In this document: in pieces, positions 13,467-59,882 of the stretch
Numbering within the stretch: position 1 is the stretch's first letter
Layout: each line of letters starts with the position of its first letter
Made by a program: the position numbers and the translations under genes
From: Chloroflexota bacterium
GTDB lineage: Bacteria; Chloroflexota; Limnocylindria; QHBO01
Reading direction: 5' to 3'
Length of the DNA stretch: 64,000 bases
Assembly: GCA_040902225.1 (NCBI GenBank)
Contig: JBBDXT010000004.1
Span: 516,965-580,964, forward strand
Notes under the pieces: model-generated
The model's database searches: none
Told to the model about the DNA's origin: nothing
The model's input: only the letters and a program-made list of their open reading frames with translations

Positions 13467-15662
13467 ATGCCCCCGAAGAAGCGTTCCAGCGGCAACCTGG
13501 TGATCGTCGAGTCGCCCGCCAAAGCCAAGACGATCGAGCGGTACCTTGGACCCGGCTACACCGTCACCGCCTCCTTCGGCCATGTTCGCGACCTCCCCCA
13601 GAAGAACCTGGGAGTCGATCTCGAGCATGACTTCGCCCCGCGCTACGAGCCGCTCAAGGAGCGCCGGAAGGAGCTCGAGAAGCTCGCCGACCTGGCGCGC
13701 AAGGCCGAGACGGTGTGGCTCGCCACCGACCTCGATCGCGAGGGCGAGTCGATCGCCTGGCACATCGCGGAGTACGCCGGCCTGGACGACGCGCACGTTC
13801 GCCGCGTGACCTTCAGCGAGATCACCAAGCCGGCCATCGAGGCGGCGTTCGCCCACCCACGCGCCGTCAACCTCGACCTGGTCAACGCCCAGCAGGCGCG
13901 GCGGGTCATCGATCGGCTGGTCGGCTACAAGCTCAGCCCGCTGGTGAGCAGCAAGATCCGGCGAGGACTCTCAGCTGGACGCGTGCAGAGCGTGGCGGTG
14001 CGCCTGGTCGTCGATCGCGAGCGCGAGATCGACGCCTTCACGGCCGAGGAGTACTGGACCATCGCGGCCGAGCTGACCCGTCGCGCGGAGAGTGGCAAGT
14101 TCACGGCCGAGCTGACCGGGATCGACGGCAAGAAGGCCCGCATCGGCTCGCAGGCCGAGGCGCGAGAGCACGAGGCCGCCCTGCGTGCCGCGGAGTACAA
14201 GGTCGCCTCGGTCAGCCGCACGCAGCAGAAGAAGTCCGCGCCGCCGCCGTTCACGACCAGCACCCTGCAGCAGGAAGCCTCCCGCAAGCTGAGCTTCGGG
14301 GCGCGACGCACCATGAGCGTCGCCCAGTCGCTGTACGAGGGAGTCGCCCTGCCGGAGGGCCAGGTCGGGCTGATCACCTACATGCGCACCGACTCGCTCT
14401 CGATCGCGAGCGGTGCGGTGAGCGAGGCGCGCGGCGTCATCGGCGAGCGATTCGGCGCCGATTTCGTGCCTGAGAAGCCGAATGCCTTCCGCAACCGGAG
14501 CCGCGGCGCTCAGGAGGCCCACGAGGCGATTCGCCCGTCCAGCTTTGCTCGCACGCCCGACAGCATGCGGGCGCACCTCAAGCCGGACGAGTTCCGCCTG
14601 TACGAGCTGATCTGGAAGCGGGCGATCGCCAGCCAGATGGCTCCTGCCCGCTTCGACCAGGTCGGCGTTGACGTGGACGCGGGGCGCTACACCCTGCACG
14701 CCGGCGCTCGCAAGCGCGTCTTCGACGGCTACCAGGCCGTCTATGTCGAGGGCCGTGACGACGAGGAGGACGAGCGCCTGGCGGTGCTGCCGGACCTGCG
14801 CGACGACGAGCCGCTCGACCTCGCCGCGGTGACCGCCGAGCAGCATTTCACCCAGCCACCGCCCCGATACACCGAGGCAACCCTGATCAAGGCGCTCGAG
14901 GAGCACGGCATCGGCCGGCCTTCGACCTACGCCCCGACCATCGAGACGATCCGCGCCCGTGGCTACGTCACCATCAAGGAGCGCCGCCTCTTCGCGGAGG
15001 AGTCCGCCTTCAAGGTCACCGACCTGCTGGTGGAGCACTTCCCCGAAGTGGTGGACATCGAGTTCACCGCGCGCATGGAGGAGCAGCTCGACGAGGTGGC
15101 GGCGGGCACCAACGAATGGGTGCCGATGGTGCGCGCGTTCTGGGACCCCTTCAGCGTCCAGATCGCCGAGGGGCGGGCCAACATCGCCAAGCAGGTCGAG
15201 CTGACCGACATCGTCTGCCCGCTGAGTGGCGACCTGCTGGTCAAGCGCTTCGGTCGCAACGGCTGGTTCCTAGGCTGCAGCGGCTACCCGGAGTGCAAGT
15301 ACACCGCGCCGCTGCCCGGGGAAGAGGCCGAGGCGGCCGCGCTGCCCGGCGTGGGGGAGGAGTGCCCGCAGTGCGGGCAGGGCCACCTGGCGGCGCGCAC
15401 CGGCCGGTTCGGGCCGTTCGTGGGCTGCGACCGCTACCCGGAATGCAAGTACATCAAGCGCGAGACGCCCGCCGCCGAGCGCTTCGGAGTCTGTCCGAAG
15501 TGCGGGCAGGGGACAGTGGTGACAAAGCGAGCCCGGCGCGGCCGGCGGCCGTTCTGGGGCTGCGACCGCTATCCCGATTGCGACTACGTGAGCTGGACCC
15601 GGCCGGGTCGCCCGGAGGAGGAGGGCGAGGCTCCCGCGGCAGCTGCGGCCGCAAGTGGCTGA
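13467..15662 (+). CDS. topA: DNA topoisomerase I
   Basis: A 731-residue type IA topoisomerase. A Toprim domain begins at about residue 11 ([17 protein letters not shown], with [10 protein letters not shown] supplying the acidic DxD/E set), and the catalytic tyrosine sits in [11 protein letters not shown]-terminal zinc ribbons follow: C-P-Q-C...C-D-R-Y-P-E-C and C-P-K-C...C-D-R-Y-P-D-C are complete, but the first one starts CPLSG and lacks the second cysteine. The enzyme relaxes negative supercoils. It heads an operon in which xerC, murJ, femX, murE and femX follow with overlapping ends. Confidence 0.97.
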
Positions 15663-16641
15663 CGCGCCGGCGCTGAGCGGCGACGCCGCGGCGGCCCTGC
15701 GGCGCTTCCTGGGCCATCTCTCGAGCCGCAACTCCTCGCCGGGCACCATCCGCGAGTACCGTCGCCACGTGGCGCAGTTCTTCGCCTTCCTCGGATCGCG
15801 CGGCGTCGACTGGAAGTCGCCCGACCGCGCTACGGTGCGCACCTACCTGGGAACGCTGGCGGAGCGCGGCCTGTCCGCCTCGACCGTCGGCGGGCAGCTG
15901 GCCGCCATCCGCTCGCTGTATCGCCACGCTGCCCGACAGGGCTGGATCGACGGCGATCCGGTGGCCGGGGTCCGCTCGCCCAAGCGCCCCGGCCGCCTGC
16001 CCCGGGTCCTGTCGGTGGACGGGGCGGCGCGCCTGGTCGAGGCGCCGGCTAACGTCATCAGACCCGGCCGACGCAGGCGCGACCCCGCACTGGCGGACGC
16101 CACGGCGCGCCGCGATGCCGCAGTCCTCGAGCTGCTGTACGCCACCGGGATGCGGATCAGCGAGCTCGCCTCGCTCACCGTCGACCGCCTCGACCCCAGC
16201 CGCCGCCGGCTGCGGGTGATCGGCAAGGGGAGCAAGGAGCGCGAGCTGCTCTTCGGCGAGCCGGCAGCCCGCGCGGTGCGCGCCTACCTGGCGTCCGGAC
16301 GTCCGACCCTGGCCGCCCGCAGCAGCAGCCCGGTTGCGGCGCTCTTCCTGAACAGCGCCGGCGGACCGCTGACCGCGCGGGGGGCTCGCATGATCGTGGA
16401 TCGCTGGGTGACGGCTTCCGGCGCCCCGGCCAGCACCTCGCCGCACACGCTCCGTCATTCGTTCGCCACGCACCTGCTCGAGGGCGGAGCCGACCTGCGC
16501 ACCGTGCAGGAGCTGCTCGGCCACGCCAGCCTGGCCACGACCCAGATCTACACGCACCTCTCCGACGCGTCGTTGCGCACGGCCTATCGCTCCGCGCACC
16601 CCCGATCGGGCCGGACCGGCTCCGCCCGCCCCACAGAGTGA
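15655..16641 (+). CDS. xerC: Tyrosine recombinase XerC
   Basis: A 328-residue tyrosine recombinase: an N-terminal SAM-like core-binding domain (about 10-100) and a catalytic domain with Arg in ATGMRISEL, Lys in [37 protein letters not shown] (His and the nucleophile Tyr). The complete R-K-H-R-H-Y set is present. GTG 15655 overlaps the topA stop by 8 bases; topA-xerC adjacency is common and supports a housekeeping dimer-resolution role rather than a phage integrase. A paralogue at 54817 is probably XerD. An insert of about 10 residues ([13 protein letters not shown]) precedes the first active-site Arg. Confidence 0.9.
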
Positions 16642-18257: not shown

Positions 18258-19309
18258 GCCGCTTCCGGCCGGCGACGCCCGCTGACGAGTCCGCCTGGCA
18301 GGCGCTCCTTGGACGGAGCCCGGCCGGCGACTTCCTGCACGACTGGGCGTGGGCAGAGGTGGCAGCCTTCGACGGCCAGGTGCAGAGGCGCTTCGTGGTC
18401 GAGGAGGAGGGCGAGATCGTGGCGATCGCAGCAGCCCAGGAGCGTCGCCTGCCGCTTGGACGGGCCTTCTGGTACGTCCCGCACGGGCCCGTCCTCGACT
18501 ACGCCGATCCCCAGGCTGCCGATCGGTTGCGCGCCGTGACAATTGGCCTGCGCGAGGTCGGCCGGGCCTCCCGGGTGATCGCGGCCAAGCTGGAGCCGCG
18601 TGTCGAGGCCGATTCGTCCGCGATGGCGCACTTCGCACGCCTGCGGCCCGATCCGCGAACCGTCCAGGTTGGCCAGACGCGCCTGGTGGATCTGACCGAT
18701 GACGAATCGTTGATGGGCAGCTTCGACAAGGACACGCGCTACGCGGTGCGCCGCTCGCAGCGCGAAGGAGTGGAGGTCCGCGTCCTGACCGATGCGTCCG
18801 ACACGACGCCGATCGACGAGCTCCACGGCCTGGTGCTCGAGACGCAGCGCCGAGCGGGCTTCCCGCGGCCGCCGCTCGAGCGCTATCGGACCGCGTGGAA
18901 AGGGCTCGCAGGCGCCGGCCGCGCCTCGATCCTGGAGGCCCGGCGGGGCGACGAGCTGCTCGCCTCCGGCATGCTGGTGCTGGAGGGCGAGCAATCCTTC
19001 TATCTCTTTGCCGGCTCGCGGCGCGAGGAGCCGGGCGAGCCGAAGCACTACGCCAGCTACCTGCTGCAGTGGGAGATGATGCGCCTCGCCCGCGAGCTCG
19101 GCAGCCGGGTTCACGACCTGTGGGGGATCGCTCCCGCTGGGGCCGGCCCGGAGCACGCCTGGCACGGGGTCGGCCTCTTCAAGAAAGGCTTCGGCGGCCG
19201 CGAGGTCCGATGGGCTGGCACCTGGGATGTCGTCATCGACCCCACCGTCTACCGCCTCCGCTCGGTGGTCGCGATGGCGCGCTCGGCCATCCCTGGGAGG
19301 TCCCGATGA
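18254..19309 (+). CDS. FemX-family aminoacyltransferase (copy 1)
   Basis: A 351-residue FemA/B/X-type protein built of two GNAT-like folds. Recognisable elements are the N-terminal DFLHDWAWAEVAAFDG, GRAFWYVPHGPVLDY, the RYAVRRSQREGVEV helix-strand, FYLFAGSRRE and HDLWGIAP...FKKGFGG near the end. Members add an amino acid from aminoacyl-tRNA to the side chain of the diamino acid in lipid II. The ATG overlaps the murJ stop (ATGA) and its end overlaps murE (ATGA, with GGGAGG before it). Two diverged copies follow at 20795 and 23003. The amino acid added cannot be read from sequence. Confidence 0.88.
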   Translation: MSRFRPATPADESAWQALLGRSPAGDFLHDWAWAEVAAFDGQVQRRFVVEEEGEIVAIAAAQERRLPLGRAFWYVPHGPVLDYADPQAADRLRAVTIGLREVGRASRVIAAKLEPRVEADSSAMAHFARLRPDPRTVQVGQTRLVDLTDDESLMGSFDKDTRYAVRRSQREGVEVRVLTDASDTTPIDELHGLVLETQRRAGFPRPPLERYRTAWKGLAGAGRASILEARRGDELLASGMLVLEGEQSFYLFAGSRREEPGEPKHYASYLLQWEMMRLARELGSRVHDLWGIAPAGAGPEHAWHGVGLFKKGFGGREVRWAGTWDVVIDPTVYRLRSVVAMARSAIPGRSR

Positions 19310-20802
19310 GCGCACCACGCTTGATGGGCCTCGGCGAGCTGACCGACGCCATCGGTCCGGAACGGGTGGTCGGCGTGCCGGTCGGCGAGGTCCGCTCCCT
19401 CGCCTACGACTCGCGGCACGCCACTGCGGGCACACTCTTCTTCGCGGTTCCCGGCGACCATGTCGACGGGCATGACTTCATCGCCGATGCGGTGGCGCGC
19501 GGCGCACGAGCGGTGGTCGCCGAGCGGGAGACCCCTGGCCTCGCCGTCCCGCAGCTGCTTGTGCCCCGCACCCGCGACGCACTGGGCGATGCCGCCGACG
19601 CCTGGTACGGGCGCCCCTCGGAGCGCCTGGAGGTGATCGGCGTGACCGGCACCGACGGCAAGACCACGACCTGCTACCTGGCCGTCGCCGCGCTGCAGGC
19701 CGGCGCGCGCCGGCCGGGGATGATCGGCACGGTGGCGGTACGGGTCGGCGACATGGAGTGGCCCAATAGGGATCGGAACACAACCCCGGAGGCGCTGGAG
19801 CTCCAGGCGCTGCTGGCGGGCATGGTCGAGGCCGGCAACGATTGCGTGGTGATGGAGGCGACCAGCCACGGACTCGCCCAGTCACGCGTCCGCAACTGCC
19901 GCTTCCGGGTCGCGATTGTGACCAACGTGACCAGCGAGCACCTCGAGTTCCACGGCACGCTGGAGGCGTATCGGGCGGCCAAGGCGATGCTGGTCGAGGA
20001 GGCGCCGATTTCCATCCTGAATGCCGATGACCCAGCCTTCGGCTACTTCCGCGACCGAGCTCGTGACCGGGTCCTCACCTACGGGACCGATTCCTCCGCC
20101 GACGTCCGCGCCACTGATATCGAGGCCCGCGCCGACGGCACGACCTTCACGGCCACCACGCCCAGCTGGAGCGCCGAGGTCAGCCTGAAGCTGCCAGGTG
20201 CCTTCAACGTGCACAACGCCCTGGCGGCGCTGGCCCTGGCCGAGGTCGAGGGCGTTGACCTCGCTGCAGCGGCCGCCGCCCTTGGCGGCGTCAGCGGCGT
20301 TCCCGGCCGAATGGAGCGGATCGACGCTGGTCAGCCGTTCGGGGTGGTGGTCGACTACGCGCACACCGCCGAGTCGCTCGAGAAGGTGCTCAGCACCCTT
20401 CGTCCGCTGACAAAGGGGCGACTGATCGTGGTCCTCGGTTCGGCGGGGGAGCGCGACCGGGTCAAGCGTCCCGCCCTGGGGCGCGTGGCGGCCGAGCTGG
20501 CCGACCTCGCCATCGTGGCGGACGAGGACCCCCGCCTGGAAGATCCGCGGGTCATCAACGAGGCGATCGCCGACGGGGCGCGCGAAGCTGGCGCTCGCGA
20601 CGGCGAGAACCTCTGGGTCATCGACGACCGCCGGCAGGCGGTCGCACACGCCATCCGCCTGGCGGAGGCGGGCGACATGATCCTGCTGGCCGGCAAGGGG
20701 CACGAGGGCAGCATCATCTACGGCCGCGAGAAGCGCTGGTGGGACGAGCGCGAGGTGGCTCGCCAGGAACTCGCCACGGCCGGATTCAGCGCCGATGCCT
20801 GA
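19306..20802 (+). CDS. murE: UDP-MurNAc-tripeptide synthetase MurE
   Basis: A 498-residue Mur ligase. The UDP-binding N-terminal domain holds SLAYDSRHATAGTLFFAVPG, the ATP loop is GVTGTDGKTTT (about 113-122), and the central domain holds NVTSEHLEFHGT. The third amino acid is recognised in the C-terminal domain; the usual DNPR motif of diaminopimelate enzymes is here D-E-D-P-R (406-410), similar in pattern to the DDPR form found in Lys-using Thermotoga MurE. The substrate may therefore be lysine or ornithine rather than diaminopimelate, which would fit the FemX genes on both sides. It overlaps both neighbours. Confidence 0.94.
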   Translation: MSAPRLMGLGELTDAIGPERVVGVPVGEVRSLAYDSRHATAGTLFFAVPGDHVDGHDFIADAVARGARAVVAERETPGLAVPQLLVPRTRDALGDAADAWYGRPSERLEVIGVTGTDGKTTTCYLAVAALQAGARRPGMIGTVAVRVGDMEWPNRDRNTTPEALELQALLAGMVEAGNDCVVMEATSHGLAQSRVRNCRFRVAIVTNVTSEHLEFHGTLEAYRAAKAMLVEEAPISILNADDPAFGYFRDRARDRVLTYGTDSSADVRATDIEARADGTTFTATTPSWSAEVSLKLPGAFNVHNALAALALAEVEGVDLAAAAAALGGVSGVPGRMERIDAGQPFGVVVDYAHTAESLEKVLSTLRPLTKGRLIVVLGSAGERDRVKRPALGRVAAELADLAIVADEDPRLEDPRVINEAIADGAREAGARDGENLWVIDDRRQAVAHAIRLAEAGDMILLAGKGHEGSIIYGREKRWWDEREVARQELATAGFSADA

Positions 20803-21865
20803 GCTCTCCGCCTTCTACGTCACCGACCGCGACGCCTGGAACGCCTTCGTCGAACAGGCCCCGTACCGCAGCTTCCCGCAGCTCTGGGAGTGGGGCGAGC
20901 TGCGCGAGCCGGCCGGGTGGCGTGCCATCCGGTTCGCGGTAGGGGAGCGCGAGGAGCGGCCGCTGGCGGGCGCCCAGGTGCTGATCCGCACCGTGCCGGT
21001 CGTCGGCTGGCGCCTCGGGTATGCGCCGCGGGGCCCGATCGGCCAGTTCGACGAGCCGGAGACTCGCCGATCCCTGGTCGCGGCCATGCGCCACCTGCGC
21101 GTCCTGGAAGGGATAGCCACCCTCAAGGTGGACCCCGAGGCCACGGCAGGCGAACCGCTCAGTGCGGAGCTTCTTGGCCCCCGTTGGCGGCCGTCGGCCA
21201 AGGTGCAGCCGCCGCGGACCCGGGTCATCGACCTCTCACTCGACGAGGACGCGCTCCTGGCCGGCATGCGCAAGAAGCACCGGCAGTACGTCCACAAGGC
21301 AGAACGCGCCGGGATCCAGGTCGAGCAGCTCGCCACGAACGCCCCGCCCAACGAGGCGGCCACCGCCCTGACCGACTTCTACGCGATCTACCGGGAGACC
21401 GCCGAGCGCGCGGGATTCGCGGTCCGCGTGCAGGAGTACTACGAACGCGTCTGGAGCCTCTTCGGCCCGGGCGGCCACGCCCGGCTCTTCTTCGCCACCC
21501 TGGACGGCGAGCGCGTGGCGACGCTCTTCCACTTCACATGCGGCGACCGCGCCGCAGAGGCCTACGGCGGCATGACCGATGCCGGCGCGGCCTCGCACGC
21601 CAACTATCTGCTCAAGTGGGAGGCGATGCGCGCCTTCAAGGCCGCCGGCTTCTCCAGCTACGACCTGTGGGGCATCGCGACCGGCGGCATCGCGCAGTTC
21701 AAGGAGGGCTTCGGCGGCCGACAGATCGACTACGTCGGCGCCCGGGACCTTCCGCTCCGCACCGCCCAGGACGCGGCCCTCCGGTTGCTCCTGCCCGCCT
21801 ACGGCATCGCCCAGCGAGCCCGCCTGCGGCTCACTGGTCACAAGCTCGCGGGCAGCGACGACTGA
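20795..21865 (+). CDS. FemX-family aminoacyltransferase (copy 2)
   Basis: A 356-residue FemX-type protein, diverged from copy 1 but with the same landmarks: YRSFPQLWEWGELREPAGWR, the basic KKHRQYVHKAERAGI helix, YETAERAGF-like second GNAT start, and YDLWGIATGG...FKEGFGG. It starts inside the end of murE (8-base overlap), so it is cotranslated with it. Expected reaction: tRNA-dependent transfer of an amino acid to the lipid II side chain, after or in place of copy 1. The topA-led operon appears to end here: a minus-strand gene begins 6 bases downstream. Confidence 0.88.
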   Translation: MPELSAFYVTDRDAWNAFVEQAPYRSFPQLWEWGELREPAGWRAIRFAVGEREERPLAGAQVLIRTVPVVGWRLGYAPRGPIGQFDEPETRRSLVAAMRHLRVLEGIATLKVDPEATAGEPLSAELLGPRWRPSAKVQPPRTRVIDLSLDEDALLAGMRKKHRQYVHKAERAGIQVEQLATNAPPNEAATALTDFYAIYRETAERAGFAVRVQEYYERVWSLFGPGGHARLFFATLDGERVATLFHFTCGDRAAEAYGGMTDAGAASHANYLLKWEAMRAFKAAGFSSYDLWGIATGGIAQFKEGFGGRQIDYVGARDLPLRTAQDAALRLLLPAYGIAQRARLRLTGHKLAGSDD

Positions 21866-21870
21866 CGGAG

Positions 21871-22131
21871 TCAGCGGCTCTTCGAGAAGTCGGTCTCCTT
21901 CACGACCTTGCCAGTGCGATCGTAAGTCCGCCAGATCCCGATCTGCCGCCCACGGTCGAACTCGCCGGATCGCATCGGGCTCCCGTCCTTGCGGAAGAAC
22001 TCCCAGGCGCCGTGCATCTGGCCGTCGAGCTGAAAGCCGCGGTAGCGGACTCCGCCGTCGTCGTAGTGAGCGATATCGGGGACCGGCTCCGTGCGTTTCG
22101 GCATCCAGGGGATTATCGTCGTTCGGGCCAT
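21871..22131 (-). CDS. Small MORN-like (YwqK-type) repeat protein
   Basis: An 86-residue soluble protein whose second half carries about three short MORN-variant units (YRGFQLDGQMHGAWEFFRKD, SGEFDRGRQIGIWRTYD, KETDF), the pattern of YwqK-family proteins that are sometimes annotated as antitoxin components. It is convergent with femX copy 2 and divergent from the Phd-VapC pair, sharing with it a 36-base promoter region that holds a palindrome. MPKRTEPV at 22104 is an alternative start. A link to the neighbouring toxin is possible but unproven. Confidence 0.65.
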   Translation of the reverse strand: MARTTIIPWMPKRTEPVPDIAHYDDGGVRYRGFQLDGQMHGAWEFFRKDGSPMRSGEFDRGRQIGIWRTYDRTGKVVKETDFSKSR

Positions 22132-22144
22132 TGACCAGGGTCTT

Positions 22145-22156
22145 ATGACCGGTCAT
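22145..22156. promoter_or_regulatory. Palindromic operator ATGACCGGTCAT in divergent promoter
   Basis: A perfect 12-base palindrome within the imperfect longer repeat TTATGACCGGTCATGATAA. It abuts the GATAAT element (22157-22162) of the antitoxin gene and lies 14 bases before the start of the divergent MORN-like gene. The position fits autoregulation by the antitoxin or toxin-antitoxin complex on both genes. Confidence 0.55.
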
Positions 22157-22162
22157 GATAAT
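22157..22162 (+). promoter_or_regulatory. -10 element GATAAT, leaderless promoter of antitoxin gene
   Basis: GATAAT ends 5 bases before ATG 22168 and directly follows the palindrome, so a bound repressor would block it. It also argues for ATG 22168 over the in-frame TTG 22162. Confidence 0.5.
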
Positions 22163-22167
22163 TGGCC

Positions 22168-22464
22168 ATGAGAACCGTGACTGCGATGGGCCTTCGGGCG
22201 CGCCTGGGCGAGATCCTCGACGCAGCTTCTTCCGGCGAGCGGATCGTGATCGAGCGTGACCATAAGCCGATGGCGGTCTTGATCCCTTACGAGGACGCCG
22301 CCCGCCTCGATCCGGACGAGCAGGAGCGCATCCGGCGCAGCCTCGAGGCTCTTGACCGACTGGTGGCCCGCGGCAAGCGCCTCCGGGCCTCGGGTCTCAT
22401 TCCCGGGGACGCGCCAGATGCAGTGACGGCGATCCGTGAGGAGCGGGCGCGCGATGACCTCTAG
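22168..22464 (+). CDS. Phd/YefM-type antitoxin
   Basis: A 98-residue protein. The N-terminal half MRTVTAMGLRARLGEILDAA followed by SGERIVIERDHKPMAVLIPY is the Phd/YefM fold, in which the head binds DNA; the charged C-terminal tail (RRSLEALDRLVARGKRLRAS onward) would wrap the toxin. It neutralises the PIN toxin encoded next and represses its own promoter. ATG 22168 is preferred over TTG 22162 because of the GATAAT spacing. It overlaps the toxin gene by 11 bases, giving coupled translation. The module interrupts the femX series and has slightly lower GC than the flanks, consistent with acquisition. Confidence 0.85.
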   Translation: MRTVTAMGLRARLGEILDAASSGERIVIERDHKPMAVLIPYEDAARLDPDEQERIRRSLEALDRLVARGKRLRASGLIPGDAPDAVTAIREERARDDL

Positions 22465-22990
22465 CGTGGCCTCGGCGCTCGTAGTCGACGCCTCGGTCGC
22501 CGTGGCGATCACCGTCCAAGAAGCGGGTCACGACCGCGCCGTTACGATCCTCCGAGAGCGCCGGGCCGCCGGTAGCAAGCTGCTGGTGCCTGCATTCTTT
22601 TGGCTCGAGGTGGCCAACGTCCTCGTCAGGCGCTATCGCCAGCGGCCTGGGGTGGTGCTCGAAGCAATCGTTGACTTGGAGAACCTTGGTCTGGAGTCTA
22701 TTGCGCTCGACCGGCCGCAACTGTTGCTCACGATCGACGCAATGGAGCGCGGCGGCCTTTCGGCCTACGACGCCGCGTATCTAGCCCTCGCGGAGTCCGC
22801 CAATGCGCAGCTCACGACTGCCGACCGACGCCTCGCTGCTGCAGCCGGCAGCCGGGCCTTACCGATCGGTGGCGGTCGCACAATCAAGGAAGCCCGCGAG
22901 CCCTACCCGGAATCCTGGGCGGCGTGGCCGGGGGCCGCCGCCTATCTCAAGCAGCTTCGCGCGCAGGTGGTCGGCCAGGCCAACGGGTAG
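22454..22990 (+). CDS. vapC: VapC-type PIN-domain ribonuclease toxin
   Basis: A 178-residue PIN-domain protein with the acidic catalytic set visible: Asp12 in LVVDASVAV, Glu in FFWLEVANVL, Asp in LSAYDAAYLALAE and Asp in LTTADRRLA. Such toxins cut tRNA or rRNA in the cytoplasm when the antitoxin decays. It is longer than typical VapC proteins (about 130-140 residues) because of a C-terminal extension of about 40 residues (GGRTIKEAREPYPESWAAWP onward). GAGGAG before ATG 22454 is a good ribosome site inside the antitoxin gene. Its TAG stop forms part of the TAGGCT element of the next gene. Confidence 0.87.
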   Translation: MTSSVASALVVDASVAVAITVQEAGHDRAVTILRERRAAGSKLLVPAFFWLEVANVLVRRYRQRPGVVLEAIVDLENLGLESIALDRPQLLLTIDAMERGGLSAYDAAYLALAESANAQLTTADRRLAAAAGSRALPIGGGRTIKEAREPYPESWAAWPGAAAYLKQLRAQVVGQANG

Positions 22991-22993
22991 GCT
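22988..22993 (+). promoter_or_regulatory. -10 element TAGGCT for femX copy 3
   Basis: TAGGCT begins with the TAG stop of vapC and ends 9 bases before ATG 23003, the same spacing as at topA and rel. No ribosome site is visible. Confidence 0.45.
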
Positions 22994-23002
22994 TCTGGAC
23001 CG

Positions 23003-24082
23003 ATGCCTCCCATCCTCCGTCGCGCCGACGACACCGACCGCACCGCCTGGGACGCCTTCATCGCCTCCCGTCCGGAGGCCGATCTCCTCCAGAGCTGGGC
23101 CTGGGGCGAGTGCACCGCGCTCGCGGGCGAGCCGTCTGCCCGCCTCCTGCTCGATGACAACGGCACGATCCGCGGCATTGCCCAGGCCCTCATGCGCCCT
23201 GCCGGGTTCGGCCGCCAGGTCGCCTACGTCGCGCATGGCCCAATCTGGGACCGATCGGCCCCGGACGCCGATCGTCTCTTCGCCTGGCTGCTCCAGGGCC
23301 TGCGCACCCTCGCCCGCAAGGAGAAGGCGCTCGTGGTCAAGCTCGACCCCCGTACGGAGCCCAGCGACGCGACCGACCTCGCCGGTCTTGTCGGGACCAA
23401 CAGGCTCCGCCCTGCACCCGACCTGCAGGCCCCGACTACCCGGATCGTCGACCTGCTGGATGGGGCCGAACAGCTCGAAGCGTCCTGGCACGCGGACGCG
23501 CGTCGCCTCTCGCGTCGCGCCGAGCGCGAGGGCACGCAGGTCACCGTCACCCGCGAGCCCGATCCCGCGCAGATTGCGATCCTCCACGAGCTGCTGACCC
23601 TGACCGCCGAGCACGGCGACTTTCGCGTCCGCTCACCGGAATTTCTCGAGCGGCTCGCGACCGAGCTGAGCCGCTCGGACGGCTGGTACCTGGGCATCGG
23701 CCGTGTCGAGGACACGCCGATCGCCGCCATGGCCTTCCCCCGCATCGGCAATCGCGCTTACTACCTGTACGGGGCCCTCCGCCGCGACCCCGAGTACAAG
23801 CATCACTACGGCGCCCACGCCGTCATGGCCACGATGCTCCGGGACCTCGCCGCCGATGGCTGCTCCACCGTCGACATGTGGGGCGTCGCCGAGCCGGACG
23901 ACACCACCGCCGATCCCGCCTGGCGTGGCTTCTCCGACTTCAAACGCACCTTCGGCGGCCTTCCCCTCCGCCATCCCGGCCTCTTCGACCTCGTGACCCA
24001 TCGGTTCTGGTACCGGCTTCGCGCCATGCGGGCCTGGTTCCATGGGCGTGTCGCAGCGATTCTTGCCTTGTCGGATCGGTAG
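23003..24082 (+). CDS. FemX-family aminoacyltransferase (copy 3)
   Basis: A 359-residue FemX-type protein with the same plan as copies 1 and 2: SWAWGECTALAGEPSARLLL, AYVAHGPIWDRSAPD, SWHADARRLSRRAEREGTQV, YYLYGALRRDPEYKHHYGAH and VDMWGVAEPDD...FKRTFGG. It probably adds an amino acid to the lipid II stem peptide. It is separated from copies 1 and 2 by the MORN-like gene and the toxin-antitoxin pair and seems to have its own promoter. Three paralogues suggest a multi-residue interpeptide bridge or different substrates. Confidence 0.87.
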   Translation: MPPILRRADDTDRTAWDAFIASRPEADLLQSWAWGECTALAGEPSARLLLDDNGTIRGIAQALMRPAGFGRQVAYVAHGPIWDRSAPDADRLFAWLLQGLRTLARKEKALVVKLDPRTEPSDATDLAGLVGTNRLRPAPDLQAPTTRIVDLLDGAEQLEASWHADARRLSRRAEREGTQVTVTREPDPAQIAILHELLTLTAEHGDFRVRSPEFLERLATELSRSDGWYLGIGRVEDTPIAAMAFPRIGNRAYYLYGALRRDPEYKHHYGAHAVMATMLRDLAADGCSTVDMWGVAEPDDTTADPAWRGFSDFKRTFGGLPLRHPGLFDLVTHRFWYRLRAMRAWFHGRVAAILALSDR

Positions 24083-34215: not shown

Positions 34216-36015
34216 ATGGGCCAGGCCTTCCGGAGTCACACCTGCGGCGAGCTGCGCGCCTCCCACGTGGGAGAGCGGGTGACGCTGGCCGGCTGGGTGC
34301 ATCGGCGCCGCGACCATGGCCATCTGGCCTTCTTCGACCTGCGCGACCGATACGGGATCACCCAGGTGGTGACCAACGCGGACGACGCAGCTGATGCCCA
34401 TCTCGCCGCCGAGCCGGCACGCAACGAGTGGGTGGTGCAGGTGGAAGGCGTGGTGCGCCATCGGCCTCCGGGGACGACCAACGCCGAGCTGGCGAGCGGC
34501 GAGATCGAGGTCGCGGTCGACACCTTCGCCGTCCTCAACCCCAGCAAGCTGCCGCCGTTCTACGTCAACGAGGAGCAGCCCGGCCTCGACGAGTCGCTGC
34601 GCCTGACCTATCGCTACCTTGACCTGCGCAGGCCTCCGCTCCAGGGGCGGATCCTGCTGCGGGCACGGCTGGCGAGTGCCGTTCGCCGGCAGCTGGAGGC
34701 ATTCGGGTTCGTCGAGGTCGAGACCCCGACTCTGATCCGCAGCACGCCCGAGGGTGCGCGCGACTTCGTGGTGCCCAGCCGCGTGCAGCCCGGCAAGTTC
34801 TACGCGCTGCCGCAGTCCCCGCAGCAACTCAAGCAGCTGTTGATGGTGGCCGGGTACGACCGCTACTACCAGCTCGCCCGCGCATATCGGGACGAGGACC
34901 AGCGCGGCGATCGGCAGCTGGAGCACACCCAGGTCGACATCGAGATGAGCTTCGTGGCAGCCGAGGACGTCATGGCGACCGTCGAGGACGTGGTGACCGC
35001 CGTCAGCGGCGAGGTGCTCCCGGAGCGTCCGATCCTGCAGACTCCGTTCCCGCGCCTCACCTACGAGGAGGCGATGAGCCGATATGGATCGGACAAGCCC
35101 GATCTGCGCTTCGGGATGGAGCTGATCGACCTGGGCGAGACGGTCAGCGACGTCGACTTTCGGATCTTCACCGAAGCGCTCGCGGGGGGTGGCGCCGTGT
35201 TCGCCATCCGCGCACCAGGCTGCGGTGACTACTCTCGCCGCCAGCTCGACGAGCTGACCGACCTTGCCCAGCGCCACGCTGCCAAGGGCCTGATCCACGT
35301 GTCCGTGCAAGCTGATGGCTCCCTTCACGGCCCGCTCGGTAAGTTCCTGTCGTTGACGCAGACGGCAGCCATCCTGGAAGCGGTGGGTGGCGAGGCAGGC
35401 GACCTGCTCCTCATGGTGGCCGATGCCGATCGTCTCGTCGCTGCCGGCGCGCTCGGCCGGCTGCGGCTCGAGATGGGCCAGCGGCTCGACCTGCGCGATG
35501 CCAGCACGCTGGCGTATGTCTGGGTCTATCCCTTCCCGATGTTCAAATGGGACGCGGACCTCGGCCGCTGGGATGCGACCCACAACCCGTTCAGCGCACC
35601 GCTCTGGGATGAAGAGGCACGCATGGAGGCCGATCCCGGCGCCGTCCATGCCCAGCAGTACGACCTGGCGCTGAACGGCTGGGAGCTCGGTGGTGGATCG
35701 ATTCGGATCCATCGTCGCGACCTGCTTGAGCGCGCCTTCGCGTTGATGGGCCACAGCGTGGAGGGGATGCGCGACCAGTTCGGCGCCCTGCTCGATGCGC
35801 TCGAATATGGCGCACCTCCACACGGCGGCATCGCGATCGGGCTGGACCGATGGTCCGCCCTGCTCGCCGACCAGGACAACATCCGCGAGGTGATGGCTTT
35901 CCCCAAGACGCAATCCGGCAGTGACCTGATGATGGGCGCGCCGTCGCCGATCACTCCCGAACAGCTGGCCGAGCTGTCGCTGCGCGTCGTGGATCACGAC
36001 CGAGAGAAGTCCTAG
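34216..36015 (+). CDS. aspS: Aspartyl-tRNA synthetase
   Basis: A 599-residue bacterial-type AspRS: an N-terminal OB fold (about 15-110; RVTLAGWVHRRRDHGHLAFF), the class II core (motif 2 around YQLARAYRDEDQRGDRQLEH), the bacterial GAD insertion (about 290-420) and motif 3 in GGIAIGLDRWSALLA. Length agrees with the bacterial family (about 590). Whether it is discriminating or also charges tRNA-Asn cannot be settled from the sequence alone. A frameshifted lipoprotein frame begins 3 bases after its stop. Confidence 0.96.
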   Translation: MGQAFRSHTCGELRASHVGERVTLAGWVHRRRDHGHLAFFDLRDRYGITQVVTNADDAADAHLAAEPARNEWVVQVEGVVRHRPPGTTNAELASGEIEVAVDTFAVLNPSKLPPFYVNEEQPGLDESLRLTYRYLDLRRPPLQGRILLRARLASAVRRQLEAFGFVEVETPTLIRSTPEGARDFVVPSRVQPGKFYALPQSPQQLKQLLMVAGYDRYYQLARAYRDEDQRGDRQLEHTQVDIEMSFVAAEDVMATVEDVVTAVSGEVLPERPILQTPFPRLTYEEAMSRYGSDKPDLRFGMELIDLGETVSDVDFRIFTEALAGGGAVFAIRAPGCGDYSRRQLDELTDLAQRHAAKGLIHVSVQADGSLHGPLGKFLSLTQTAAILEAVGGEAGDLLLMVADADRLVAAGALGRLRLEMGQRLDLRDASTLAYVWVYPFPMFKWDADLGRWDATHNPFSAPLWDEEARMEADPGAVHAQQYDLALNGWELGGGSIRIHRRDLLERAFALMGHSVEGMRDQFGALLDALEYGAPPHGGIAIGLDRWSALLADQDNIREVMAFPKTQSGSDLMMGAPSPITPEQLAELSLRVVDHDREKS

Positions 36016-36427: not shown

Positions 36428-36580
36428 ATGTCTCTGAAGCCGGGCGCAATTCTGTTGCTCGTCGCGGTTGTGCTGTTTCTGCTTGCGGCGTTTGAGTTCA
36501 AGGTCGGCACGTTGGACCTCGTGACGCTCGGCCTGGCCGCGTTCGCGGGCTCGTTCCTGCTCGAGGGCTGGAAGCGCTAG
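36428..36580 (+). CDS. Small membrane protein (50 residues)
   Basis: A 50-codon gene with GAGGAGAGG immediately upstream of ATG 36428. It encodes two hydrophobic segments, PGAILLLVAVVLFLLAAFEF and LVTLGLAAFAGSFLLEGW, ending in KR, so it is a two-helix membrane protein. Strong third-position GC and a good ribosome site support expression. Such small proteins are common in high-GC bacteria and are often missed. Function unknown. It is convergent with ectC, 3 bases away. Confidence 0.65.
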   Translation: MSLKPGAILLLVAVVLFLLAAFEFKVGTLDLVTLGLAAFAGSFLLEGWKR

Positions 36581-36583
36581 CGT

Positions 36584-36970
36584 CTAATCGGTCGGCGGCG
36601 GGAAGCTTCCATCTGCGTCATGCGTCTCGCCGCCGGTCAACGCCGGGTTGAAGACACAAACGAGATGGAGGTCGGTCCGCACGCGGAGGGTGTGGCGGTC
36701 GTGCTGGTCGAGCGCATACATCGACCCAGGCCGAAGGATGTGCTGCTCACCAGTTAACAGGTCGGTCAGCTCCGCCTCACCCGCCATGAGGTAGCAGGCC
36801 TCGAGGTGATGCTTGTACTGCAGGGTGAGCTCGGTTCCTGCCGCCACGGTGGTGTCGTGCAACGAAAAGCCCAGCCCGTCGCGTCGTAAGAGGAGGCGGC
36901 GGCTGCGCCAGCCCTCGCCCGCGACATCCCGGTCACTCCCCACCACATCGTCGAGGGTTCGCACGATCAC
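36584..36970 (-). CDS. ectC: L-ectoine synthase, orphan
   Basis: A 128-residue cupin that matches EctC over its whole length: MIVRTLDDVVGSDRDVAGEG, WRSRRLLLRRDGLGFSLHDT, YKHHLEACYLMAGEAEL and LVCVFNPALTGGETHDADGS. The metal ligands known from structural work on EctC (Glu57, Tyr85, His93) are conserved at exactly these positions. The enzyme cyclises N-gamma-acetyl-diaminobutyrate to ectoine, an osmolyte. ectA and ectB are not adjacent, so this is an orphan ectC here; it may act on an imported or differently made substrate. GTG 36970 has GGAGG 8 bases upstream. Divergent from the LCP gene. Confidence 0.9.
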   Translation of the reverse strand: MIVRTLDDVVGSDRDVAGEGWRSRRLLLRRDGLGFSLHDTTVAAGTELTLQYKHHLEACYLMAGEAELTDLLTGEQHILRPGSMYALDQHDRHTLRVRTDLHLVCVFNPALTGGETHDADGSFPPPTD

Positions 36971-36998
36971 CGATCCACACCTCCATGTCCCAGCGTCG

Positions 36999-37004
36999 TA
37001 GACT
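36999..37004 (+). promoter_or_regulatory. -10 element TAGACT, leaderless promoter for LCP gene
   Basis: TAGACT ends 7 bases before GTG 37012, an in-frame start 27 bases inside the longest open frame. The element lies inside the putative longer coding region, which argues against ATG 36985. Confidence 0.5.
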
Positions 37005-37011
37005 GCCGCCC

Positions 37012-38445
37012 GTGGCGCCCCGCTTGATCGCCGCGATTCGGCACTCCGCCGTGATCGCAGCTCTGCTCTCGTTCGTGTGGCCCGGCCTTGGTCAAGGCTG
37101 GGTCGGTTCGCGTCGTCGGGCGCTGATGTTCGCGGTGCCGATGATGCTCCTGCTGGGCGCCGGCGTGGTGGTCATGATCGTGCAGGGCAAGGCCCGCTCC
37201 CTGGGCCTGCTGCTCCAGCCGAGCGTTCTGCTGCCGCTCATCGCGCTCAACATCGCCGTGCTCGTCTACCGCCTCTTCGCAATCGTGGACGCGTATCGAG
37301 CGGCGGCGCGCCGTTGGCCGCCGATCCCGGATTTCCGGGCCGCGCTCGGACTGGTCCTCCTGGGCACCCTGCTGGGCAGCACGCTCCTGATGCACGGCTG
37401 GCTGGGGTTCGTCGGCATCAAGGCGTATGACACCGTGGTCGCCATCTCCCACCCGTTCGGCAGCGCGACGCCGGTCCCCGCCGCCAGCCGGCTACCCGGC
37501 GAGACGCCCGGCCCGACGCCCGAGCCGACGCCGATCCCCACTCCAGAACCGGCGTGGGGTGACAACGGGCGGCTCGATCTGCTCCTGGTCGGGGGAGACG
37601 CCGGCCCCGGGCGCTTCAGCCTGCGCACGGACACGATGGTCATCCTGAGCATCGAGGTCAGGACCGGGCGCGCTGCGCTGTTCGGGCTGCCGCGCAACCT
37701 CCTGAACGTCCCGCTGCCGGACGGTCCGGCCCAGGCCTTCGACTGCCGGTGCTATCAGGACCAGCTGAATTCGCTCTACACCTACGCCATTGCTCATCCC
37801 GAGATCTTCCCCGGCCCTGATGAGGAGCGCGGCTATCGGGCCGTCCAGGAGGCGATCGCCGAGCTGACCGGCCTCCAGATCGACGGGCAGGTGGTTGTCA
37901 CCCTCGGCGGCTTCATTCACGTGGTGGATGCGCTGGGTGGGCTGGACATGACGACGAAGGACTCCATCTATGATGCGACCTATCCGGATCCCTTCAGCAT
38001 CAAGCGCGATGTCACCGTCTACATTGCGAGAGGCTTCCACCACTTCGACGGCTGGCATGCGCTGGCCTACGCGCGTTCGCGCCACCAGGACAACGACTAC
38101 AACCGGATGAACCGGCAGCAGGAGGTGCTGCTGGCGCTCCGCCAGCAGCTCGACCCGTGCACCCTCATCCCGCGCATCCCCGAGCTGCTCGACATCGCCC
38201 GTGACTCGCTCTGGACCAACATCCCGATCGAGCAGCTGCCGGACCTGTTGGCGATCGGAGCCAGCGTTCGCCCCGGCACCATCGCCACCTACCAGTTCTG
38301 GCCACCGGCCATTCAAGAGAATCTGGACTTCGCGAGCATCAGCCGGGTGCGGTCGATCGCGCGCACCGCGTTCCTGATGCCCTTGGCAACGCCGGCGCCG
38401 TCGTCCAGCGAGACCCCCACATCCGGCTCCGGGTCGGTCTGCTAG
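37012..38445 (+). CDS. LytR-CpsA-Psr (LCP) family envelope transferase
   Basis: A 477-residue protein: about four N-terminal membrane helices, a Pro/Thr-rich linker (PGETPGPTPEPTPIPTPEPA) and an extracytoplasmic LCP domain (about 185-440) with RTDTMVILSIEVRTGRAALF, GLPRNLLNVPLPDG and HALAYARSRHQDNDYNRMNR, which hold the Arg/Asp residues that bind the polyprenyl pyrophosphate. LCP proteins attach glycopolymers to peptidoglycan, or sometimes to protein. The multi-helix N-terminus is longer than the usual single helix. Start GTG 37012 is chosen from the TAGACT element; ATG 36985 is the alternative. Confidence 0.87.
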   Translation: MAPRLIAAIRHSAVIAALLSFVWPGLGQGWVGSRRRALMFAVPMMLLLGAGVVVMIVQGKARSLGLLLQPSVLLPLIALNIAVLVYRLFAIVDAYRAAARRWPPIPDFRAALGLVLLGTLLGSTLLMHGWLGFVGIKAYDTVVAISHPFGSATPVPAASRLPGETPGPTPEPTPIPTPEPAWGDNGRLDLLLVGGDAGPGRFSLRTDTMVILSIEVRTGRAALFGLPRNLLNVPLPDGPAQAFDCRCYQDQLNSLYTYAIAHPEIFPGPDEERGYRAVQEAIAELTGLQIDGQVVVTLGGFIHVVDALGGLDMTTKDSIYDATYPDPFSIKRDVTVYIARGFHHFDGWHALAYARSRHQDNDYNRMNRQQEVLLALRQQLDPCTLIPRIPELLDIARDSLWTNIPIEQLPDLLAIGASVRPGTIATYQFWPPAIQENLDFASISRVRSIARTAFLMPLATPAPSSSETPTSGSGSVC

Positions 38446-38458
38446 GAGACCTGGTCCG

Positions 38459-39634
38459 ATGAGCATCTACCTCGACCATGCCGCCACCACGCCGCTCCGC
38501 GCCGAGGTGCTGGAGGCGATGCTGCCCTACCTGACGAACCACTTCGGCAATGCGTCAAGCCCGCACGCCGCCGGCCGACGGGCGCGGCAGGGACTCGACG
38601 AGGCCCGGGAAGGGATCGCTTCGATCCTGGGCGCCAGGCCCCGCGAGATCGTCTTTACCGGCGGCGGCAGCGAGGCCGATAACCTCGCCATCAAGGGTGC
38701 CGCCTGGGCGGCCAGCGCCAAGGGACGGCACATCGTCACCAGCGGCGTGGAGCACAAGGCGGTGCTGCATGCCTGCGCAATCATGGAGCGCTCCGGCTTC
38801 GGGGTGACCGTCGTCCCGGTCGACCGATTCGGCCGCGTTGACCCCGCCGCGGTCGAGGCCGCCATCAATGAGCACACCAGCCTGGTCTCGATCATGTACG
38901 CCAACAACGAGGTCGGCACGATCCAGCCGATCGCGGAGATCGGTGCCATCTGCCGCCGTCACCGCGTCCTCTTCCACGCCGATGCAATCCAGGCCGCGGG
39001 CTTCCTTCCACTCGACGTCGACAACCTGGGAGTCGATCTGCTGAGCCTGGCCGCGCACAAGGTGTACGGGCCCAAGGGGGTCGGCGCGCTGTTCGTGCGG
39101 CAGGGGACGGCACTCCTGCCGCAGATCCAGGGCGGCGCCCAGGAGCGGCAGCGGCGCGCTGGAACGGAGAACGTGGCCGGCATCGTCGGCTTTGGGCGGG
39201 CCCTGGAGCTGGCCCAGGGCGATCGATCGGCCCGCGACGCCGAGAATGGGCGTCTGGCCGGCCTGCGTGATCGGCTCCTTGTCGGCATGCGGGAGCTGGA
39301 CGGGGTGGAGCCGAGCGGCCATCCCAGCGAGCGCCTGCCGCATAGCGCCAGCTGGCTGATCGACGGCGTCGAGGGAGGAGACCTGGTGGCCGCGCTGGAC
39401 CTGGAGGGCGTTGAGGGGAGCACGGGCAGCGCCTGCACCAGCGGCTCCGCCGAACCGAGCCACGTCCTGCTGGCGATGGGGATCGACGCCGAGCGTGCCC
39501 ATGGTGCGCTGCGCCTGACCGCCGGCCGAGGTACGACGCTCGACGACATTGAACGAGCGACCGAGGTCCTGCGCTCGACCATCGGCCGCATCCGTGAGCA
39601 GGCCGCGCGACCAAACACCGTGGCATCGGCCTGA
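38459..39634 (+). CDS. iscS: Cysteine desulfurase (IscS/NifS family)
   Basis: A 391-residue PLP enzyme: YLDHAATTPLRAEVLEAMLP, the cofactor lysine in SLAAHKVYGPKG, GGAQERQRRAGTENV, and the active cysteine in STGSACTSGSAEPSHVL. It takes sulfur from cysteine to give a persulfide for iron-sulfur clusters and tRNA thiolation. TGATG overlap with mnmA downstream indicates that its sulfur mainly feeds 2-thiouridine formation. AGGAG lies before ATG 38459. Whether it also serves cluster assembly is not shown by this context. Confidence 0.94.
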   Translation: MSIYLDHAATTPLRAEVLEAMLPYLTNHFGNASSPHAAGRRARQGLDEAREGIASILGARPREIVFTGGGSEADNLAIKGAAWAASAKGRHIVTSGVEHKAVLHACAIMERSGFGVTVVPVDRFGRVDPAAVEAAINEHTSLVSIMYANNEVGTIQPIAEIGAICRRHRVLFHADAIQAAGFLPLDVDNLGVDLLSLAAHKVYGPKGVGALFVRQGTALLPQIQGGAQERQRRAGTENVAGIVGFGRALELAQGDRSARDAENGRLAGLRDRLLVGMRELDGVEPSGHPSERLPHSASWLIDGVEGGDLVAALDLEGVEGSTGSACTSGSAEPSHVLLAMGIDAERAHGALRLTAGRGTTLDDIERATEVLRSTIGRIREQAARPNTVASA

Positions 39635-53975: not shown

Positions 53976-54808
53976 GCCGTTTCGGTTTCGCGTTCAACCC
54001 GACCAACCCACAGGCCCGCGCCGCGCTCGAGCGTGCACGGGCGTGGTGCGCCGCCAACGGGGTCGAAGCGTGGGACGCGGAAGCCGACGATGTCGATCGG
54101 ATCGCTGCGGAATGCGTGGGGAGCGAGCTGATCTGCGTGCTCGGCGGGGACGGGACGTTCCTGCGCGCGGCGCGCGGCATCGGCGACTCGGCGGCACCGA
54201 CCCTGGGCGTCAACCTGGGGCGCGTCGGGTTCCTGGCCAAGGTCGAGACCGACGACCTGGAGGAGGCGCTCTCCAAGGTGGCGAGCGGCGACTTCGCGCT
54301 CGAGGATCGATTCCGAATCGAGGCCACGCTGCTTCGAGCGGACGGTGAACAGCTGCGGCATGCCTGCCTGAACGAGGTGGTGGTGGCGCGCGGGACCCGG
54401 GTGCGAATGATCCAGGTCGAGGTCGAGGTCAGCGGCAGCCACCTGGCGACCTGGGTCTCCGACGGCGTGGTGGTTGCCACGCCGACGGGCTCGACCGCAT
54501 ATTCCTTCAGTGCCGGCGGCTCGGTGCTCGATCCCCGGCTGCGGAACATGATCATTACCTCGGTCGCCGGCTACCTGTCGCCGCTGCGCAGCGTGGTCGC
54601 GGGCGAGGAACAGGTCGTACGACTGTCGCTGCGCCAGGCGGTCTCGGGCGCGACGATCAGCATCGACGGGCAATGGGATCTGCCGATGGCGGTCGGCGAG
54701 ACGGTGGAGGTGCGCGCGCTGCCGGTGCCGCTGCGCATGGTCGAGCTGAGCGGCGGCACGCCGTTCTACGACCTGCTGCGCACCAAGGCCTCCCTGCTGC
54801 CGTACTGA
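53972..54808 (+). CDS. nadK: NAD kinase
   Basis: A 278-residue NAD kinase: [20 protein letters not shown] with the GGDG motif, [35 protein letters not shown] and [20 protein letters not shown]. It phosphorylates NAD to NADP. GTG 53972 overlaps the RHH gene stop (GTGA). recN, which often follows nadK, is absent; a Xer recombinase gene follows instead. Confidence 0.95.
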
Positions 54809-54816
54809 CGCGACGC

Positions 54817-55716
54817 ATGGCCGATGCGGCCGTCGATCCGGCACTGGACGCCGCCATCCGCGCGTTCCTGGACGAGCTGCAGGTGGAGCGCGGCCTGTCG
54901 CCGTTGACGGTGGCCGCCTATCGGCGCGACCTCGCCCAGTTCGCGGCGGTCGCGGGAAGGTCCTGGCGCCACGACCCGGAACCGGTGCGCGACTTCGTGA
55001 ATGCGCTCCGGCGCGATGGGCGGCGGCCGAGCACCCAGGCGCGCAAGGTGGCGGCCATCCGCAGCTTCTATGGCTTCGCGCTGCGCGAGGAGCTGGCCGA
55101 TCGGGACGTCGCCGCCCTGCTCGATGCTCCCAGGGCGGGAAGCTACCTTCCCGATGTACTGAGTGCGGAATCGGTCGCCAGCATCCTGGATGCGCCACCC
55201 GCCGATGACCCGGTCGGGATCCGCGATCGGGCGATTCTCGAGCTGCTGTACGCGTGCGGGCTGCGGGTCAGCGAGCTGACCGGCCTGGACACCGACCGGC
55301 TGGACCTTCCCGGGCTGCAGGTGCGCGTCATCGGGAAGGGCAACCGAGAGCGGAGGGTGCCGATGGGGGAGGAGGCGCGTGAGCGCATCCATCGCTACCT
55401 GGCCGGCCCACGCGCGACCTGGGCGGGGCGACGACCCAGCCCAGCCGTCTTCGTCAGCCAGCGGGGCGCACGGCTGGCGCGCGAATCGGTCTGGCGCCTG
55501 GTGAAGCGCTGGGCGGCTGCGGCGGGGGTCGAGGCGCGGGTGACGCCGCACACCTTTCGGCACAGCTTCGCCACGCACCTGCTCGAGGGAGGAGCCGACC
55601 TGCGGGTGGTTCAGACGCTCCTTGGCCATGCTAGCATCAGCACCACCCAGCTCTACACGCACCTGACCGGAGAGCGCCTCCGCGAGGTCTACGCGCGGGC
55701 GCATCCACGAGCCTGA
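54817..55716 (+). CDS. xerD: Tyrosine recombinase XerD
   Basis: A 299-residue tyrosine recombinase with core-binding domain ([20 protein letters not shown]) and catalytic residues in [45 protein letters not shown] and [16 protein letters not shown]. Length and the [17 protein letters not shown] head are XerD-like. With the XerC homologue at 15655 it would resolve chromosome dimers at dif; no dif-like site was identified here. XerC and XerD labels are assigned by similarity and context and could be swapped. Confidence 0.9.
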
Positions 55717-59322: not shown

Positions 59323-59882
59323 CCGCGGCCGACGAACTCGGCGCCTTCCTGGAGGCGCTGCTCTTCATCGCCGAGCGACCGCTGAGCAGCATCGAGCTGG
59401 CCGAGCTGGCCGGCGTGCCGCGCCAGGAGGGCGAAGCAGCGCTCGCGAGATTGGCCCAGGACCTCGCCGCGGACCACCGGGGGCTGCGCCTGCAGCGCAT
59501 GGACGACGCCTGGCAGCTCGCCACCGCCCCCGAGGTCGGGGAGCGGCTCGCGACCTATGCGGCCCGCGAAGAGGCACGCGTCACGCCGGCGGCGCTGGAG
59601 GCGCTGGCGGTGGTCGCCTATCGGCAACCGTGCACCCGCGGCGAGGTTGAGCGCGTGCGCGGCGTCGACTCGGACTACGTGCTCCGATCCCTCCTCCATC
59701 GGCGCCTGCTGGTCGAGATGGGCAGGCGGGACACTCCCGGCCGCCCGATCCTGTACGGAACGACCTTCGCCTTCCTCGAGCGCTTCGGCCTTACCTCGCT
59801 CGACGACCTGCCACCGATCGAGGAGGGCAACCCACCGACGCTGCCGGCTGCCGAGCAGCCGGAGCCGGTCGATGCCGGCTGA
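59319..59882 (+). CDS. scpB: Segregation and condensation protein ScpB
   Basis: A 187-residue protein with two winged helices: LGAFLEALLFIAERPLSSIE and VTPAALEALAVVAYRQPCTR, GEVERVRGVDSDYVLRSLLH, GRPILYGTTFAFLERFGLTS. It dimerises and binds ScpA. It overlaps both neighbours: ATGA with scpA and 11 bases with the fused pseudouridine synthase-cmk gene. Confidence 0.94.
   Translation: MTAADELGAFLEALLFIAERPLSSIELAELAGVPRQEGEAALARLAQDLAADHRGLRLQRMDDAWQLATAPEVGERLATYAAREEARVTPAALEALAVVAYRQPCTRGEVERVRGVDSDYVLRSLLHRRLLVEMGRRDTPGRPILYGTTFAFLERFGLTSLDDLPPIEEGNPPTLPAAEQPEPVDAG

Follow-up and report, generated by a model that had tools for sequence, protein, structure and literature searches.

The window analysed here, a stretch of 64,000 nucleotides from a Chloroflexota bacterium, carries on its reverse strand a gene for an ectoine synthase (EctC) family protein. 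The genome containing it amounts to 2.28 Mb in 7 contigs and is 99.37% complete. The features of the locus are collected in Table 1. The preliminary description placed ectC between a putative 50-residue membrane protein and an LCP gene, and this arrangement was recovered, the former as a called ORF and the latter through a match to LytR_cpsA_psr.

Table 1. Features of the ectC locus, in window coordinates
Feature	Position	Strand	Basis
aspS, aspartyl-tRNA synthetase, constant neighbour of the family ectC	34216..36015	(+)	named from sequence
50-aa ORF beside ectC	36428..36580	(+)	ORF call
ectC, ectoine synthase (EctC) family protein, 128 aa, GTG start	36584..36970	(-)	profile matches, active-site alignment
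Shine-Dalgarno GGAGGTG of ectC, 7 bases before the GTG	36978..36984	(-)	sequence
LCP-family protein (LytR_cpsA_psr), head to head with ectC	36985..38445	(+)	profile match
nifS/iscS-type cysteine desulfurase, constant flank of ectC opposite aspS	38459..39634	(+)	profile match

The ectC product matched PF06339 with an E value of 1.1e-52 and 178.4 bits (cut-off 27), the sole match to this profile in the genome, and the NCBIfam ectoine synthase model NF009806 with 181.7 bits (cut-off 128). The protein is full length, positions 1-125 of 130 being covered by the family match. Four PDB sequences were retrieved at E<=0.001, all of them ectoine synthases (5bxx/5by5, 5onm, 5onn, 5ono). Over the compared stretches, the protein is identical to the Sphingopyxis enzyme at 66 of 125 positions (52.8%) and to the Paenibacillus enzyme at 61 of 123 (49.6%). 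The alignment retains the metal ligands E57, Y85 and H93 as well as the ligand contacts W21, S23, R25, H38, T40, Y52 and F107, the roles of these positions (Asn or His at 38) being those described in PMC6344544. S23, H38 and T40 match the Sphingopyxis enzyme, and His at position 38 is also present in 24 of the 27 operon-labelled rows of our alignment. The window copy is canonical at every position tested, including 23, 38, 40 and the spacing between Y85 and H93. By score, length and ligand residues it is a member of the EctC family with a predicted cyclase function, and the profile matches, the PDB matches and the alignment all bear out the earlier claim of a full-length EctC with Glu57, Tyr85 and His93. 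A strong ribosome-binding site, GGAGGTG, precedes the GTG start. A spurious antisense ORF was ruled out by the family scores, the conservation across the family and the ribosome-binding site.

The other genes of the ectoine pathway were searched for in this genome and in the 22 genomes of its family, itself included. In the genome containing the window, no ectB exceeded the cut-off of TIGR02407 (best match 222.2 bits against 552.2), and TIGR02406, the ectA model, gave no match at E<=0.001. Similarly, among the 22 family genomes no ectB exceeded 552.2 bits (best 234.5) and no ectA reached 120.6 bits (best 31.9). ectB matches below the cut-off occur in all 22, and the same model gives matches in 14 of 14 control genomes. 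The pair of ectA and ectB by which a canonical ectABC pathway was recognised is therefore lacking, over these cut-offs, in all 22 genomes. DoeA and DoeB, which together were taken to indicate ectoine degradation, gave no match in the genome containing the window; across the 22 family genomes DoeA was absent at E<=1e-30, and DoeB never passed its cut-off, two weak matches in G007 (50.2 and 41.9 bits) falling below it. The preliminary description had stated in advance that finding the whole ectAB at another place in the genome would make the locus part of a dispersed normal pathway. No ectAB was found over the cut-offs, and therefore ectC, with one copy in the genome and neither ectA nor ectB beside or apart from it, is an orphan genome-wide at the sensitivity of the models used. 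A dispersed normal pathway was thus ruled out, all ectA and ectB matches lying below cut-off in the 22 genomes.

Within the window, no match to the ectA, ectB, EctD/PhyH or aspartokinase families (NCBIfam or Pfam) was detected among the 37 ORFs scanned, in agreement with the earlier statement that none of these genes surrounds ectC. The scan comprised 35 of the 56 called ORFs and two shorter ones, with E cut-offs of 1e-10 or 1e-6 for 30 of them; the 21 called ORFs left out were short ones together with hisS, aspS, mnmA and alaS, named from sequence. The window also holds three features of separate interest. A single ORF at 59557-61320 runs from an S4/RNA pseudouridine synthase region into a cytidylate kinase, a possible gene fusion or read-through. 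Positions 18895-24082 contain a Mur ligase gene and two FemAB-type aminoacyltransferase genes with a PIN-domain gene between them, likely a cell-wall branch-peptide locus, odd for the phylum. Finally, two phage-integrase-family tyrosine recombinases (15655-16641 and 54673-55716) are found within 40 kb among housekeeping genes.

One EctC over the cut-off was detected in 17 of the 22 family genomes and in none of the 99 other genomes of the same search. In that search, 11 weak and partial PF06339 matches from the class's family f3 fell short of the cut-off (21.2-26.5 bits against 27) and were not accepted as EctC. Sampling 400 genomes of the phylum yielded 11 with EctC: 6 from the window's family, 3 from family f12, 1 from f85 and 1 from f22. 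The 15 named records matching the window's family are MAGs designated 'Chloroflexi bacterium' or 'Chloroflexota bacterium'. In all 17 carriers, ectC is located in the interval between aspS and nifS, antisense to these neighbours; the aspS flank is visible in 15 of 17, the nifS flank in 15 of 17 and both in 13, the missing flanks lying beyond contig ends. The reading frame is open in all 17, the copy of G012 being cut by a contig end. Three non-carriers (G005, G008 and G011) have a complete aspS-nifS interval without ectC (no match at E<=1e-4); as to the other two, aspS is cut by a contig end in G014 and was not found in G017.

The immediate neighbours of ectC in the window are not constant. 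An LCP gene was seen to occupy the slot in just four genomes, namely that of the window, G001, G003 and (without ectC) G008, and G002 alone of the loci compared has a homologue of the 50-aa ORF. Neither being conserved in the slot across the family, both were ruled out as partners of ectC, whose constant neighbours are aspS and nifS. Contamination or a one-off transfer was ruled out by the slot shared by 17 genomes, with both flanks seen in 13. The single origin of the family ectC rests on this shared slot, the unity of the family in trees being weak.

All 120 pairwise comparisons among 16 family copies gave pN below pS; the median pN/pS was 0.50, a value raised by saturation. In the 15 closest pairs dN/dS ranged from 0.12 to 0.29 (0.18 between the window copy and G002), and therefore ectC has been maintained as a working protein under purifying selection, its activity being predicted. 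GGAG or GAGG, read by eye, lies within 22 bases upstream of ectC in 15 of the 16 copies. All 17 family rows share E57, Y85, H93, W21, R25, Y52, H55, C105, F107, E115 and H117. Variation is seen at position 38 (H in 5 rows, S in 11, N in 1), position 23 (S in 10, A in 7) and position 40 (T in 16, V in 1); G018 is an example of a relative with S38 and A23. Moreover, 7 of 16 family rows have one residue fewer between Y85 and H93.

Two EctC trees were built on 131 columns, one of 87 rows and a second of 74, from which 17 rows (most of them closely related to other rows) were left out and to which 4 sequences of family f22 were added. In the 87-row tree, a single branch (support 99/97) unites the 27 operon-labelled EctC with two Bacillaceae sequences that lack ectAB nearby. 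This label was given to L097 on an ectB fragment alone and to L041 (G215) through its kinship with G148 and G187. At the loci inspected in f12 and f85 (G148, G187 and G421), ectA and ectB lie directly upstream of ectC. The main orphan branch comprises 37 rows (95/90), mostly Pseudomonadota with three Actinomycetota. The window's family falls outside both branches and groups, with modest support (81/72), with the EctC of G447, a member of Chloroflexota family f22 that is placed inside the group. The 74-row tree returned the same two exclusions (operon branch 86/97, orphan branch 96/90); there the family was one clade in 56% of bootstraps and is not resolved as such.

The surroundings of other ectC genes were compared by scanning the loci of 127 relatives with the patterns L[RH]LVCVFNP and [WQE]Y[KR]HHxEAC, which over-represent Cys105 and the motifs used and miss divergent orphans; 80 loci were kept. 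They comprise 15 from the window's family, 23 with ectB nearby (22 also with ectA) and 42 with neither, "nearby" meaning the fetched stretch of at most 6 kb on each side, less on short contigs. A distant ectB-like match of 26% identity is present in L100 and L126. Of the 42 lone loci, 17 had an amidase gene close to ectC (14 with an Achromobacter query, 3 with a Bacillaceae query) against 0 of the 23 operon loci, 9 had an SBP_bac_3 protein against 1, and 8 had a DUF1989 gene against 0. The loci are not independent, the 8 with DUF1989 being six Achromobacter and two Burkholderia. ABC permease/ATPase queries matched 14 of 42 lone and 7 of 23 operon loci and did not discriminate between them. Of the 5 ectC loci from Chloroflexota family f22, 3 likewise have DUF1989 as a neighbour; the G477 and G481 loci carry an identical EctC and count as one observation. 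The DUF1989 proteins near ectC are 55-62% identical to each other across phyla. We take DUF1989 to be tied to carboxyguanidine deiminase; the two are reportedly named together in one paper, and DUF1989 is said to figure in a TMAO demethylase paper as well.

Cassettes around lone ectC genes can be seen in two phyla, for instance at L065:9457-14514 (G447), L169:2259-5642 (G477) and L115:1952-8053 (Achromobacter). In G477, ectC, a CN-hydrolase gene, DUF1989 and an amidase gene missed by both amidase queries are gathered within 3.4 kb. In L126 (Afifellaceae), a DoeA-like M24 gene is found near ectC. These contexts suggest that many lone EctC may work in cassettes for uptake and hydrolysis. Amidase, DUF1989 and the other cassette genes were all absent from the 15 family loci compared, and applying the cassette context to the window ectC would be reasoning by analogy. 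Two further contexts were observed. In G477, a second ectC copy (L167:7704-10568) is close to genes for an alpha/beta hydrolase and for an osmolyte enzyme, a TreT-type trehalose synthase/glycosyltransferase. A short-chain dehydrogenase gene is found near lone ectC in 12 of the 42 loci, all from Roseobacter/Ruegeria relatives and mostly directly upstream (L099:5165-5983 and similar places in 11 others).

Ectoine transporters were among the genes that the preliminary description proposed to look for. An OpuAC/OsmF-like system is indeed present in the genome containing the window: its OpuAC-type binding protein scores 84.4 bits to OsmF (cut-off 400) and adjoins a ProV-type ATPase (338.5 bits, cut-off 326.6). 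OpuAC-type osmolyte-binding proteins were detected in 20 of the 22 family genomes, the match in G005 being short and weak, and SBP_bac_3 proteins in 20 of 22 at E<=1e-10. These candidate importers make it possible that an ectoine precursor is taken up.

We tentatively favour, at somewhat less than an even chance, a role of the window EctC in salvage, as a cyclase acting on N-gamma-acetyl-diaminobutyrate that other organisms supply. Our reasons are that the enzyme departs from the canonical residues at none of the tested positions and that no other part of the pathway was found. The enzyme would use a metal, iron in the studied enzymes, for ring closure, and would convert N-gamma-acetyl-L-2,4-diaminobutyrate to ectoine, the N-alpha isomer probably being less well used. 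A kcat/Km of 1.47 per mM per s is reported for the Sphingopyxis EctC (PMC4795551). Ectoine makers or degraders would leak the substrate, which could then enter through amino-acid or osmolyte importers; at the price of a single small enzyme, the cell would acquire a stress protectant. An H. elongata ectC mutant reportedly forms ectoine when given the lone EctC of P. syringae, and host-plant leaves gave ectoine in culture (PMC5924519). Counting against salvage, P. syringae is reported to have taken up the added substrate without making the expected ectoine (PMC5924519), and ectoine metabolism is the one source of the substrate known according to PMC6344544. The generic nature of the importers, the drift at positions 23 and 38 in relatives and the place of the family outside the operon branch point the same way.

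A changed substrate appears unlikely to us; in this reading EctC would cyclise, or open, some other gamma-acylamino acid or cyclic amidine (e.g. glutamine to ADPC), ectoine being at most a by-product. The placement of the family outside the operon-encoded EctC, the 7 of 16 rows shortened between Y85 and H93, and the amidases, DUF1989 and binding proteins that accompany other lone ectC genes are in line with such a change, as is the variation at positions 23 and 38, which are product and carboxylate contacts in the Paenibacillus enzyme (PMC6344544). The conversion of glutamine to ADPC is, moreover, a reported side reaction of EctC (PMC4795551). However, the window copy shows none of this variation at the tested positions, and its family shows none of the cassette genes at the 15 named loci.

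Reverse use, in which imported ectoine or a similar ring would be opened to N-acetyl-diaminobutyrate and feed a general deacylase and nitrogen metabolism, we consider improbable. In its favour stands G447, in which no ectB was found over the cut-off and where a run of genes in the same direction comprises DUF1989, an amidohydrolase, an ArgE/DapE-type deacylase, a DoeA-like M24 hydrolase and ectC, so that ectC follows the DoeA-like gene and two M20 deacylase-type genes. The M24 hydrolase, however, scores 422.8 bits against a DoeA cut-off of 613 and the amidohydrolase 317.3 bits against a DoeB2 cut-off of 550, and the window's family has neither DoeA nor DoeB over cut-off. Biochemically, a minor hydrolysis of ectoine by EctC has been reported (PMC4795551), as has reversibility in Halorhodospira extracts, but purified H. 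elongata EctC is described as being without the reverse reaction (both cited in PMC3187862).

Still less credit can be given to a hidden complete pathway, in which an unrelated or promiscuous aminotransferase and acetyltransferase would make the substrate in the cell. The genome containing the window does have five ectB-like genes of the class III aminotransferase type. Yet all five fit other NCBIfam models better than ectB, namely PRK05769 (acetylornithine type), PRK08117, PRK06062 and, twice, the glutamate-1-semialdehyde aminomutase model PRK00062 (acetylornithine/GABA-type, PRK06062-type and glutamate-1-semialdehyde models), 2 of the 5 lying below the cut-offs of their own best models. Around the two best, no acetyltransferase was detected among the 10 neighbour ORFs scanned, which carry ABC importer parts, CoA transferase, dihydroorotate dehydrogenase and luciferase-type domains, and no EctA over cut-off was found in the 22 genomes. 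Finally, a functionless relic of a lost ectABC operon is hardly credible: the three family genomes with an empty slot indicate that the gene can be absent, but the frame is open in all carriers, purifying selection acts on it, the ribosome-binding site and active site are conserved, and no ectA or ectB remnant lies beside ectC in the 16 family loci searched.

A broader proposal, which we regard as possible but somewhat doubtful, is that lone EctC, including this Chloroflexota lineage, are no leftovers of ectoine synthesis and constitute a separate class of amidine-ring enzymes acting on an imported N-acyl-amino acid or cyclic amidine. Elsewhere they would belong to a recurring cassette of amino-acid binding protein or importer, amidase or DoeA-like hydrolase, DUF1989 and EctC (Burkholderiales and another Chloroflexota family), of which the window's family would keep only EctC, at one site.

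Whichever role applies, the lineage offers a clean test of what an orphan EctC does, with one gene, neither ectAB nor doeAB, and long maintenance at one site. EctC alone is no proof of ectoine making, which matters for pathway calls in metagenomes, and the cassette around other lone ectC genes names partner enzymes and compounds. Orphan ectC, their frequency and their undecided role are already in print (PMC5924519, PMC6344544). The preliminary description was right that such genes occur, but they are not limited to a few bacteria: 145 orphans are reported among 582 EctC-type proteins (PMC6344544), and the complete gene set in 75% of ectC-containing genomes (PMC5924519). The fixed-slot Chloroflexota lineage and the association with amidase and DUF1989 were not found in our searches of open-licence papers. 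The Chloroflexota family is thus a new lineage of a known orphan ectC kind.

Compared with known systems, the window EctC shares with the operon EctC of Chloroflexota (G148, G187 and G421) the PF06339 match, the phylum and the catalytic residues, but the latter have ectA and ectB directly upstream and fall inside the operon branch. Ectoine breakdown genes (doeA/doeB; eutD/eutE) have a counterpart in the relative G447, whose ectC adjoins DoeA-like and deacylase genes, in contrast to the window's family with its lack of DoeA and DoeB at the thresholds given above. Another close parallel is with orphan EctC such as that of Pseudomonas syringae B728a, which likewise has intact metal and ligand residues without ectAB (PMC5924519, PMC6344544). 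At position 105 the family has Cys in 17 of 17 rows, Ser being frequent in orphans according to PMC6344544 and our own orphan set being biased towards Cys105 by the search pattern. Unlike the main proteobacterial and actinobacterial orphan branch, outside which it is placed in the trees, and unlike known orphans, the window's family keeps its ectC fixed at one housekeeping slot across a Chloroflexota family.
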